A DNA stretch of 33,624 nucleotides from Isoptericola sp. (GTDB lineage Bacteria > Actinomycetota > Actinomycetes > Actinomycetales > Cellulomonadaceae). Below are positions 25,839 through 30,441 of the stretch, piece by piece. The notes beneath the pieces were generated by a model. It saw nothing but the letters and a program-made list of their open reading frames with translations, was not told where the DNA came from and ran no database searches. The stretch is from positions 1 through 33,624 of the forward strand of contig JAPSLD010000008.1 in NCBI GenBank assembly GCA_031181105.1. Reading direction: 5' to 3'. How positions within the stretch are numbered: the first letter of the stretch is position 1; each line of letters begins with the position of its first letter. The translations under genes were made by a program, and so were the position numbers.

Positions 25839-27347
25839 TCAGTCGGTGACGCGGCGCCACGCGCGCCCGAGACGGACGACGGCGTCCTCGAGCTCCGCGG
25901 GCGTGCGCGCGAAGGTGAGCCGGACGCGGTCGCGCGCCGCGCCGTCGGGCGTGAACACCGGCCCGGGTGCGACCAGCACGCCCTCGGCGACCGCCGCGGC
26001 CGCGAACGCCTGCGCGACGGGCCGCCCGAGCCCGACCCAGAGGCACAGCCCTCCGGCCGGCGACGGGACGTCCCACGCGGGGACCGCCGAGCGCGCGCCG
26101 TCGACGAGCAGGTCGCGACGCGCGCGCAGGTCGGCGAGCCGGCCCGGCAGGATTTCGTCGCGCCGCGACAGCAGCTCCACGACGGCGAGCTGCTCGAGCA
26201 CCGCCGTGGCGATGTCGACCGACTGCCGCGTGCGGGCGAGCCGCTGCACGACGTGCTCCGGCGCGCGGACCCACCCGACGCGCAGGCCGCCCCAGAACGA
26301 CTTCGAGGCGGACCCGACCGAGACGACGTGCGGCGAGGCGCCGTCGCCGGCGAACGGCGACCGGATGGCGGCGTCGTCGTCCAGCGCGAGGTCGGTCAGC
26401 GTCTCGTCGCCGACCACGGTGACGCCGTACCGGTCGGCGAGGTCGCGCACGGACGCCCGCTCGTCCGCCGTCAGCGAGCGGCCGGTCGGGTTGTGGAAGT
26501 CCGGGACCAGGTAGACGAGCCGCGGCCGCGTCCGCCGGACCGCGGACGCGAGGGTCTCGACGTCGCCCGCGGGGACCCCGACGACGCGGGCACCCGTGCG
26601 CCGCAGGGCGTCGGCAGCGTGCACGTACGTCGGGGACTCGACGACCGCGGTCTCGCCCGGGCCGACGAACGTCGCCGCCAGCAGCGCGATCGCCTGCTGG
26701 GCGCCGGTCGTCACGAGCACCTGGTCGGGTGCGGTCGGCACGCCCCGGGCCGTGTAGCGGTCGGCGACGGCGGCCCGCAGGGGAGCGATCCCGTGGTGGG
26801 CGTAGCCGCCCGTGCCGAGGTACGCGGGCAGCGCCTCGAGCGCCCGGGAGAAGGCGGCGTGCAGCGCCGGGGTCGCGGACGGCGTCGCCTGACCGAGGTC
26901 GAGCGGCGTCGCGAGGTCGCGCGGCGTGGCGAGGTCGCGCGGGCCGTCCGGGGCGCCGGCGTCGGCCGTCGGGGCGTCCCCGGCTGACGGCGCCGGCGTG
27001 CGCGCGCCCCGGCCGCTCGCGGAGCCGCGCGGCAGCACCGCCACGGTGCCCGAGCCCACCCGGCTGACCGCGAACCCGAGGTCGCGCAGCCGGGCGTACG
27101 CGGCCGCGGTCGTCGTCCGGGAGACGCCGAGCGCCGCGGCGAGGTCGCGCTCGCTCGGCAGCCGGGTCAGCGGGGCGAGCGTGCCGGAGAGCACGGCCGA
27201 GCGCAGCGCGTCGGCGAGCGCGAGGTATGCCGGGCCGCCGCCGCGCCACTCGCCCAGCAGGCGTGCCGTGGCGGTGGCCGAGAGGTGGCACACGGCGGGT
27301 GCGGCGAGGCCGGCGGGGCGTGCCGGGACCGGCGCGGTGAGGGTCAC
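25839..27347 (-). CDS. MocR-type regulator (GntR HTH plus PLP aminotransferase-like domain), YczR-like
   Basis: This 502-aa protein has an N-terminal GntR winged helix (about 38-105, with [18 protein letters not shown] at the HTH), a linker with a repeated RDLATP, and a C-terminal fold-type I aminotransferase domain (about 160-500). PLP contacts are visible: N286 in HNPTG, D314 in GDET and K349 in [14 protein letters not shown]. MocR proteins use PLP adducts of amino compounds as signals. The GTG at 27347 is supported by TTGAGT-N17-CACAGT ending 6 nt upstream. It is divergent from a YczE-like gene, the arrangement known for the YczR subgroup, with a dyad between them. Confidence 0.92.
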
Positions 27348-27363
27348 GGGTCCACTGTGCGGC

Positions 27364-27390
27364 GATTGGCCATGGAACTCAAGACCAATC
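27364..27390. promoter_or_regulatory. Dyad between the MocR-type gene and the yczE-like gene, probable regulator site
   Basis: GATTGG (27364-27369) and CCAATC (27385-27390) form a perfect dyad with a 15-nt spacer; the arm centres are 21 bp apart, two helical turns. The -35 of the regulator gene (TTGAGT on the minus strand, 27382-27377) lies between the arms. The right arm ends 6 nt before the predicted -10 (CATGAT) of the yczE-like gene. Confidence 0.7.
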
Positions 27391-27409
27391 AGGGGGCATG
27401 ATCGGTCCC

Positions 27410-28078
27410 ATGAGTCAGACCCGTCGTGTCGTCCAGCTCCTGGTCGGCCTGCTCGCGTTCGCGTGGTCCATGGCGATGCTGCTGCACGCCGGCATGGGCG
27501 GCATGCCGTGGGACGTCCTGCACCAGGGCGTGGTGCGCACGACCGGGCTGCCGTTCGGCGCGGTCGTCGCGGCCACGTCGGTGCTCGTGCTGCTCGCCTG
27601 GATCCCGCTGCGGCAGCGTCCCGGCGCCGGGACGGTCGCCAACGTCGTGGTCATCGCCGCGGCGATCGGTCCGTCGATCACCGCCCTCGACGTGCTGCTG
27701 CCCGAGCCGGGCCTCGCGGCGCGCGTCGCGCTCGCGCTCGGCGGCATCGTGCTCAACGGCGTGGCGACGGCGGCCTACGTCGGCGTGCGGCTGGGCCCGG
27801 GGCCGCGCGACGGCCTGCTCACGGGTCTCGTCGCCCGCACGGGGTGGTCGGTACGGGTCGTCAAGACGGTCATCGAGCTCGCCGTCGTGCTCGCCGGCTG
27901 GGCGCTCGGCGGCACGCTGGGCTGGGCGACGATCGCCTTCGCGTTCGGCGTCGGCCCGGTGGTCCAGGCGTCGGTCCGCTGGCTCGCCCCGACCGGCCTG
28001 GGCGACGCCCGGACGAGGCCCTCCGAGGAGCCTGTCCGCGCGGGCGTTGCGACCGGGGAGCACAATCGGGAGGCATGA
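27410..28078 (+). CDS. YczE-like membrane protein
   Basis: This 222-aa protein has about five or six membrane helices and the motif [14 protein letters not shown] (about 26-39) after the first helix, as in YczE proteins of the YitT-related group. The biochemical function is unknown. The ATG at 27410 is preferred to 27398 because CATGAT ends 7 nt upstream, while the other ATG lies inside that element. It is divergent from the MocR-type gene, the usual YczR-YczE pair. Its stop overlaps the arginine deiminase start by 4 nt (ATGA), so the membrane protein and the enzyme are made together. Confidence 0.85.
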
Positions 28079-29337
28079 CACGGCCGCACGCCCCGACCAC
28101 CCGTCCGTCGTCCGCCTACGGCGTCCACTCGGAGGTGGGCCGGCTCCGCAAGGTGCTGGTGTGCCGGCCCGGCCTGGCGCACCGCCGGCTGACCCCGTCC
28201 AGCTCGGCCGAGCTGCTCTTCGACGACGTGCTGTGGGTCGACCGCGCCATGGAGGACCACGCCCTGTTCGTCGAGCAGCTGCGCGCCCGCGACGTCGAGG
28301 TCGTCGAGCTGCACGAGCTCCTCGCCGGGACGATGGAGGTCCCCGGGGCGCGCGACTGGCTGCTCGACCGCAAGATCGTGCCCGAGACGGTCGGCACGGG
28401 CCTGGTCGAGGCGACGCGCGCCTACCTCGACGACCTGCCGCCGGCGACCCTCGCCGAGTATCTGGTCGGCGGCCTCGCCGTCCAGGACGTGCCCGAGCTG
28501 CCCCCCGGCTTCCGCGCGCTGGCGGCCTACTCGCCCGACGCGCGCGAGTACCTCATGGCGCCCCTGCCGAACACGCTGTTCACCCGCGACACGACCTGCT
28601 GGCTGTACGGCGGCCTGACGCTCAACCCGCTGTACTTCCCGGCGCGGCGCGACGAGACGCTGCTGATGAAGGCGGTCTACGAGTTCCACCCCGACTTCGT
28701 GGGCTCGACCGTCTGGTGGGGCGACCCGGAGCACGACCACGGGCGCGCGACGTTCGAGGGCGGCGACATCATGCCGGTCGGCGACGGCGTGGTGCTCATG
28801 GGGATGAGCGAGCGCACGTCGCGCCAGGCCATCACCCAGGTGGCCTCGGCGCTGTTCGCGCGGGGAGTCGCCGACCGCGTCGTCGTGGCGGGGATGCCGC
28901 GGCTGCGCGCGGCGATGCACCTCGACACCGTGATGACGTTCGTCGACGTCGACACGGTCACGGTCTACCCGCGCATCGTGGGCTCGATCCACGCGTTCAC
29001 GCTGCGCCCGGGGGAGGGCGACGGCGGGGTCGCCGTGACCGACGAGGGCGCCACGCCCTTCCTCGACGTCGTGGCGCGAGCGATGGGGCTCGACCGGCTG
29101 CAGGTCATCGAGACGGGCGGGGACGTCTACGAGTCCGAGCGCCAGCAGTGGGACAGCGGCAACAACGCGGTCGCCGTCGAGCCGGGTGTCGTGTTCACCT
29201 ACGACCGCAACACCACGACGAACGACCTGCTGCGCAAGGCCGGGATCGAGGTGCTCGAGATCGCCGGCGCGGAGCTGGGCCGGGGGCGCGGGGGAGGCCA
29301 CTGCCTGACGTGCCCGATCGTGCGCGACCCGGTGTGA
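28075..29337 (+). CDS. arcA: Arginine deiminase
   Basis: ArcA hydrolyses arginine to citrulline and ammonia in the cytoplasm. The 420-aa length is standard. The guanidine-binding and catalytic residues are visible: D172 in FTRDT, E228 in FEGGD, H282 and D284 in HLDTVMT, and the nucleophile C410 in [15 protein letters not shown] lies just upstream, and the ATG overlaps the yczE-like stop by 4 nt. No arcB, arcC or arcD is in the window, so the usual ATP-yielding pathway is not encoded here. The divergent MocR-type regulator probably controls the pair. Confidence 0.96.
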
Positions 29338-29378
29338 GCCGGTGTGAGCCTGCGCCCCGACGGCGCGGCCCCGGCCCT

Positions 29379-29418
29379 GCCCGCCGTCCTCTCGCACCCG
29401 GCGGGGAGGACGGCGGGC
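29379..29418. terminator. Bidirectional terminator between arcA and the aldo/keto reductase gene
   Basis: GCCCGCCGTCCTC (29379-29391) and GAGGACGGCGGGC (29406-29418) form a perfect 13-bp stem with a 14-nt loop between convergent genes. Confidence 0.75.
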
Positions 29419-29427
29419 CGAGGAGGA

Positions 29428-30441
29428 TCAGGCCGGGCGGGTCTTCGGGGCGTTCTCGGCCGTCTTGCCCGGGTCGCGCTCGACGACGTCGCCGAGGACG
29501 TCGTCGATCCTCGCCAGGAGCTCGGCCGGGATCTCGACGCCCGAGGCCTTGACGTTCTCGGCGACCTGCTCGGGCCGCGAGGCGCCGACGAGCGCGGCCG
29601 CGACGTTGTCGTTCTGGAGCACCCACGCGATCGCGAGCTGCGCCATGGACAGACCGAGCTCGTCCGCGACCGGACGCAGCCCCTGCACGCGCTCGAGCAC
29701 CTCGTCACGCATGAAGCGCTGGATCATGCGCGCGCCGCCCTTGTCGTCCGTGGCGCGGGAGCCGGCCGGGAGCGGCTGGCCGGGGACGTACTTGCCCGTG
29801 AGCACGCCCTGGGCGATGGGGGACCAGACGATCTGCGACAGGCCGTTCTGCCGCGAGGCCGGGACGACCTCCTCCTCGATCACGCGCCACAGCATCGAGT
29901 ACTGCGGCTGCGAGCTGATGAGCTGGAAGCCGAGGTCCTTCGCGAGCTTCGCGCCGTCGCGGATCTGGTCGGCGGTCCACTCGGACACGCCGATGTACAG
30001 GGCCTTGCCCTGGCGCACGACGTCGGCGAACGCCTGCATCGTCTCCTCGAGCGGCGTCTCGGTGTCGTACCGGTGGGCCTGGTACAGGTCGACGTAGTCC
30101 GTGCCGAGCCGCTGCAGCGACCCGTTGATCGACTCCATGATGTGCTTGCGCGACAGCCCGGTGTCGTTGGGGCCACCGGGGCCGGTCGGCCAGTAGACCT
30201 TGGTGAAGATCTCGAGCGACGCGCGGCGCTGACCCTTCAGGGCGTCGCCGAGGACCTGCTCGGCCTTCGTGTTCGCGTAGACGTCGGCGGTGTCGAACGA
30301 GGTGATGCCCGCGTCCAGGGCGGCGTGCACGCACTGCGTCGCGACGTCGTTCTCGACCTGCGACCCGTGGGTGAGCCAGTTGCCGTAGGTGATCTCGGAG
30401 ATCTTGAGACCGCTGTTGCCGAGGTACCGGTAGTTGACCAT
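29428..30441 (-). CDS. Aldo/keto reductase
   Basis: This 337-aa TIM-barrel, NADPH-dependent reductase carries the catalytic tetrad D50 and Y55 (FDTADVY), K81 (FTKVYW) and H123 (YQAHRYD). The overall pattern (RYLGNSGLKIS at the start, then GVSEWTADQI and VGASRPEQVAENV) matches the AKR branch related to YghZ and potassium-channel beta subunits. The physiological substrate is unknown. The ATG at 30441 follows TAGGGT by 6 nt, with no Shine-Dalgarno sequence. The gene is monocistronic, and its 3' end lies next to the arcA terminator. Confidence 0.93.
   Translation of the reverse strand: MVNYRYLGNSGLKISEITYGNWLTHGSQVENDVATQCVHAALDAGITSFDTADVYANTKAEQVLGDALKGQRRASLEIFTKVYWPTGPGGPNDTGLSRKHIMESINGSLQRLGTDYVDLYQAHRYDTETPLEETMQAFADVVRQGKALYIGVSEWTADQIRDGAKLAKDLGFQLISSQPQYSMLWRVIEEEVVPASRQNGLSQIVWSPIAQGVLTGKYVPGQPLPAGSRATDDKGGARMIQRFMRDEVLERVQGLRPVADELGLSMAQLAIAWVLQNDNVAAALVGASRPEQVAENVKASGVEIPAELLARIDDVLGDVVERDPGKTAENAPKTRPA

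Follow-up and report, generated by a model that had tools for sequence, protein, structure and literature searches.

A likely co-regulated yczR–yczE–arcA unit confined to one clade of Isoptericola and probably formed by a single capture of arcA

The regulator YczR and the membrane protein YczE have been described as a divergently encoded pair with GTCCACT- and GGCCA-like repeats (Milano et al., 2016, PMC4944035; the available portion of that article). In the accessible text of a later classification of MocR regulators (PMC6677901), YczR is listed as the putative regulator for a sulfur-compound membrane protein, a label that does not point to arginine. The same holds for the available extract of a Bacillus study, in which YczE reportedly has a posttranscriptional effect on bacillomycin D synthesis (PMC6457013). 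The arginine deiminase gene arcA is known from two further arrangements, the actinobacterial arcD–arcA pair and the arcABC clusters with ArcD or ArcE, the latter being a precedent for an unrelated membrane protein that replaces ArcD (Noens and Lolkema, 2016, PMC5300872; the portion of the text available).

The locus analysed here lies in a 33,624-nucleotide stretch of Isoptericola sp. DNA (the window). It shares with the YczR–YczE pair, as far as the accessible part of PMC4944035 describes it, both protein families, the divergent gene order and the two kinds of repeat, and differs from it by a third gene, arcA, after yczE. With the actinobacterial arcD–arcA pair it has in common the deiminase subfamily and the position of the enzyme gene directly behind a membrane-protein gene; however, ArcD belongs to the basic amino acid antiporters, whereas YczE matched no such family in a profile scan. 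The comparison with the arcABC clusters is limited in that transport by YczE is hypothetical. In addition, carbamate kinase (arcC) exceeded the TIGR00746 cut-off in none of 18 Isoptericola genomes, with weak partial-profile matches in all 18, so that the system does not look like an ATP-yielding arginine deiminase pathway. No description of a yczR–yczE–arcA unit was found in one open-access literature collection.

The gene arrangement given by the original prediction, a MocR-type regulator followed on the other strand by yczE and arcA, was reproduced in coordinates and strands, and all three products scored above curated cut-offs (Table 1). The proposed overlap of 4 nt was likewise confirmed as an ATGA in which the yczE stop codon (TGA, 28076–28078) and the arcA start codon (ATG, 28075–28077) are interlocked, an overlap shared by the four Isoptericola genomes in which the two genes adjoin (hereafter the linked genomes). 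The yczE open reading frame runs from 27398 to 28078 (+); the three sister loci share the start codon at 27410 (ATG), and the in-frame ATG at 27398 is, by eye, absent from two linked genomes (G005 and G017). No promoter-like or terminator-like site was detected in 27300–29450 using a sigma-70 consensus scan, which says little for a high-GC actinobacterium. Because four species preserve the overlap and the divergent promoter region contains a YczR-type operator, a single yczE–arcA transcript under YczR control is likely, in line with the one promoter initially envisaged for both genes.

Table 1. Features of the yczR–yczE–arcA locus and its right border, in window coordinates.
Feature	Position	Strand	Remarks
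YczR-type MocR/GntR regulator	25839..27347	-	wHTH and aminotransferase-like domain; NCBIfam NF052290, 543.7 bits vs. cut-off 487.4; PF00392, PF00155
Putative YczR operator, divergent promoter region	27349..27389		GGTCCACT at 27349-27356; ATTGGCC..AAGACCAAT at 27365-27389
yczE membrane protein, 222 aa	27410..28078	+	NCBIfam NF052291, 225.6 bits vs. cut-off 205; start common to sister loci
ATGA overlap, yczE stop/arcA start	28075..28078	+	Kept in 4/4 linked genomes
arcA, arginine deiminase, 420 aa, Promicromonosporaceae-type	28075..29337	+	NF002381, 1rxx alignment, tree
Aldo-keto reductase, convergent	29428..30441	-	PF00248; right border of insertion site, outside unit

YczR aligns with 2-aminoadipate transaminase (2egy), and Asn286, Asp314, Lys349, and Arg476 are kept. 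These four residues align with the PLP-binding residues of a fold type I aminotransferase. Their retention is consistent with the original proposal that YczR would be a PLP-dependent regulator. In addition, the Asp-Glu-Thr sequence reported for YczR in the available part of PMC4944035 is kept as Asp314-Glu315-Thr316, together with Lys349, as judged from the 2egy alignment and the positions named there.

The putative YczR operator between yczR and yczE resembles the YczR motifs published in PMC4944035, to the extent that the accessible text gives them. It consists of GGTCCACT followed by ATTGGCY-ATGGA-N4-AA-N2-CCAAT, a layout visible in most loci compared. When two mismatches were allowed, the second element had exactly one genome-wide match in 17 of the 18 Isoptericola genomes, always upstream of yczE; in the remaining genome (G011) the contig ends before the operator position. 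Because the pattern was built from these very sites, the matches there arise by construction, and the real result is the lack of any further site. The reversed control pattern gave no match in the 18 Isoptericola genomes. Moreover, a scan of the 15 Isoptericola deiminase loci that are unlinked gave no operator match even when four mismatches were tolerated. Control of arcA by YczR is therefore expected only in the four linked genomes and would be novel for this clade.

Both yczE and arginine deiminase were found over their cut-offs in all 18 Isoptericola genomes. The two genes are adjacent in four of them (G000, which is that of the window, G005, G016, and G017), whereas the deiminase gene lies elsewhere in the other 14. 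The linked genomes form one clade by their flanking proteins (support 100/100), in a test based on three genes from the same region with the G010 row 31% filled. The whole order of pyrD-like gene (named by eye), small ORF, yczR, yczE, aldo-keto reductase, and M20 peptidase was seen in the window and at 15 of the 17 other loci, those of G010 and G011 being cut by contig ends. Only in the four linked genomes does arcA lie between yczE and the reductase gene; the reductase follows yczE with no intervening arcA in 13 of the 14 unlinked genomes, and in G010, the remaining one, the contig stops before that point.

The survey was extended to larger sets of genomes. Within the family, deiminase was over the cut-off in 91 of 221 genomes and YczE in 179 of 221, indicating that at least 88 family genomes contain YczE without the enzyme. 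Adjacency was seen in four of the 91 deiminase-positive genomes among the matches listed, the others having the two genes far apart, on different contigs, or no YczE; one of the 91 (G026, in which all YczE matches are weak) was left unplaced, and weaker second deiminase copies are possible beyond the matches listed. At the level of the order, 144 of 396 genomes had a deiminase over the cut-off. No yczE–arcA adjacency was found among the matches listed for the 137 deiminase-positive genomes outside the family, four of which (G230, G252, G269, and G437) were left unplaced. YczE matched at 1e-10 in 37 of 61 and 27 of 76 of these genomes, and all 19 family genomes included in the same search as the 61 matched YczE. 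Many surveyed genomes are drafts, in which location on different contigs is no proof of large distance. Furthermore, within 5 kb of the best 80 of 580 deiminase loci, which were named, yczE was detected (tblastn, 1e-8) at two only, those of G005 and G016. The pair was thus found in four genomes and not in a single strain, as the original prediction required of its link, yet it does not extend beyond one clade among the matches listed.

Other candidate neighbourhoods were not counted as operons. In G237, G253, and G268, which belong to one other genus, have the yczR–yczE pair and are the nearest cases among the matches listed, yczE lies 3 to 8 kb upstream of a deiminase of approximately 42% identity on the same strand, with intervening genes present, and in each of them yczE is followed by a called gene of opposite orientation. 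Among the genes between yczE and the deiminase of these three genomes, which are of another family, larB/larC-like genes were noted, with an acetyltransferase in at least one (by eye). In G266, yczE and the deiminase gene are 13 kb apart with hydrogenase-like genes between them (by eye), and the deiminase–yczE distance of 40–49 kb conserved in 12 genomes of genus g35 reflects gene order only.

The state of the junction before the arrival of arcA was suggested by gene calls at 35 yczE loci (three from Isoptericola and the rest from other genera), made with a crude GC-bias caller. At 32 of the 35 loci the gene called next has the opposite orientation, and in 23 of those 32 the C-terminal end of its product looks, by eye, like that of one and the same aldo-keto reductase. 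An opposite-strand gene in this position indicates that the yczE transcript normally ends with yczE and that arcA arrived afterwards. As side observations, an additional small gene, convergent and by eye acetyltransferase-like, lies between arcA and the reductase in G005 and G017 and was not called in the window or in G016, and G006 and G012 show a second, 82-residue match to the aldo-keto reductase 1.4 to 2.1 kb off, perhaps a partial duplication.

The deiminase of the window exceeds the cut-offs of NF002381 (539.2 vs. 414) and PF02274 (432.4 vs. 22.8) and falls short of that of the stricter equivalog TIGR01078 (463.8 vs. 489.1 bits). Its alignment with the solved structure 1rxx covers nearly the whole length of the protein and matches Asp172, Glu228, His282, Asp284, and Cys410, the catalytic residues of arginine deiminase. 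Its origin was assessed using a tree of 95 sequences, obtained from 133 rows after removal of 13 duplicates and 25 Streptomyces rows. The four linked deiminases form one clade (SH-aLRT 99) nested within a 30-row Promicromonosporaceae-type clade (97), which also includes Promicromonospora, Myceligenerans, Antribacter, one Cellulomonas, and one Isoptericola row. A separate clade (99) holds 14 of the 15 other Isoptericola deiminases. The fifteenth is a second copy in G001, of the Promicromonosporaceae type and at another location, 763 nt from arcD on the other strand; its presence points to repeated entry of this type into the genus or to frequent loss.

Relocation of a resident arcA was rejected because the linked enzymes group with the Promicromonosporaceae types and not with 14 of the 15 other Isoptericola deiminases. 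As the linked arcA is of the former type, it was most likely acquired once, and a single gain by transfer is the simplest reading of the tree; an old paralogue retained only in the linked clade would give an identical tree. Separately, Promicromonospora has a second deiminase lineage with arcD not upstream and mostly beside a VIT-type membrane protein (by eye), and a related deiminase of Myceligenerans likewise has no arcD upstream.

We consider that the locus is probably a known YczR–YczE pair whose operon gained arcA in a single capture, dating to the common ancestor of the small linked clade of Isoptericola. In the linked genomes a Promicromonosporaceae-type arcA stands between yczE and the aldo-keto reductase gene, which is convergent; its start codon is interlocked with the yczE stop codon in the ATGA, both genes show purifying selection, and the lone YczR-type operator upstream of yczE has been retained. 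YczR, probably with PLP, would govern the yczE promoter in response to an effector, and the transcript from this promoter would continue into arcA, whose translation may be coupled to that of yczE. The deiminase would then convert cytoplasmic arginine to citrulline and ammonia when the YczR signal permits, and YczE would retain its ancestral role, independent of the deiminase. The co-regulated YczR–yczE–arcA unit is therefore likely real, but derived and confined to one clade. The original claim that adjacency reveals the function of YczE was not supported, since the link is confined to a single clade (4 of 18 genomes), YczE occurs in at least 88 family genomes that have no deiminase over the cut-off, a convergent gene commonly follows yczE, and the linked arcA is of a non-resident lineage. 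The yczE–arcA link is weak evidence on the substrate of YczE.

Whether the arrangement has been maintained by selection bears on the strongest of the alternatives, a link that is adaptive through regulation only: YczR would sense an amino compound and the clade would profit from ammonia and citrulline, with YczE acting on another substrate. Among the four linked genomes, dN/dS is 0.08–0.14 for the deiminase and 0.09–0.21 for YczE, values that denote purifying selection, and the synonymous distances between the loci are 0.23–0.56. The arrangement has thus survived approximately 0.4 synonymous changes per site, suggesting that selection for it may exist. The overlap kept in four species, the single conserved operator, the PLP residues retained in YczR, and the sulfur-compound label (PMC6677901, within the text available) are also consistent with a regulatory link. 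However, its single origin provides no replication, and we regard this alternative as unlikely, though it deserves to be kept in mind.

A second alternative is that YczE carries arginine and citrulline (or ornithine) and serves the deiminase of the linked clade instead of ArcD, as ArcE does elsewhere. The distribution of ArcD, whose family was assigned by TIGR00905 (493 bits, over the cut-off of 409) and TIGR03810 (533.8, under the cut-off of 591), argues in part for this idea. At the named deiminase loci (best 80 of 580), arcD is directly upstream of arcA in 56 of 80, and ArcD is present in 12 of the 18 Isoptericola genomes, directly upstream of arcA in 10. No ArcD match at E 1e-20 was found in the four linked genomes, of which G005 and G017 are 100% complete and the other two, G000 and G016, come from incomplete assemblies, one at 74% and one at 86%; two unlinked Isoptericola, G006 and G015, gave no ArcD match either. 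The resulting contrast within the genus (ArcD-negative in 4/4 linked vs. 2/14 unlinked genomes) gives a Fisher p of 0.005 over 18 genomes, although the four linked genomes are one clade and represent one event. ArcE moreover provides the precedent of a non-homologous exchanger (PMC5300872, in the text available). Across the family, however, deiminase without detected ArcD is common: 36 of the 91 deiminase genomes lack an ArcD match at 1e-60, and 32 of these are unlinked, five of them being also YczE-negative among the matches listed. Neither ArcD nor YczE therefore seems needed beside the enzyme, and the absence of ArcD was rejected as proof of its replacement by YczE. The family genomes that possess YczE and no deiminase, and the unlinked arcA genes with no YczR operator match, also speak against this alternative.

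Properties of the YczE protein itself also count against this alternative. Columns invariant among 35 aligned YczE proteins are unchanged in the four linked ones. The YczE of the window has no Pfam match, and thus no C-terminal DUF2179 match. Its AlphaFold2 model is confident (pLDDT 90.6), but a Foldseek search against solved structures returned none at E 0.001 or better, the best VIA-align hit (Z 5.9 over 64 residues) is in the range common for helical bundles, and the best solved chain by sequence had an E value of 0.18. The fold was accordingly rejected as a pointer to the substrate, since a model with no significant solved relative yields none. Overall, a carrier function of YczE for arginine appears improbable.

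The placement of arcA could also be neutral, if arcA brought its own promoter in a leader that is now the yczE tail and the overlap arose through loss of the old yczE stop codon. By eye, the YczE of G005 still has a C-terminal segment resembling the one in unlinked Isoptericola, followed by an extra tail, and those of G000, G016, and G017 lack the segment; the tail, encoded directly before arcA and ending in ATGA, is common to all four, as is a nearly identical short block preceding arcA. These features fit such a history, but no consensus promoter was found in the scanned 27300–29450 and the block has, by eye, no well spaced -35 element, leaving a neutral placement a shade less probable still than an arginine carrier. 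The boldest proposal, that YczE is a third, unrelated arginine/citrulline exchanger replacing ArcD and YczR a PLP-dependent sensor of arginine-pathway amino acids, is the least probable of all; if true, YczE would across its family export or exchange a related amino compound.

YczE is widespread, and a gene that joins its operon is a cheap lead to its substrate. The present case shows how such leads are to be weighed, as the joining of yczE and arcA happened once and with an enzyme of a foreign lineage. The four species, in which no ArcD was found and yczE overlaps arcA, thereby form a natural test set for a link between YczE and arginine, and the captured unit makes YczR control of arginine deiminase testable.
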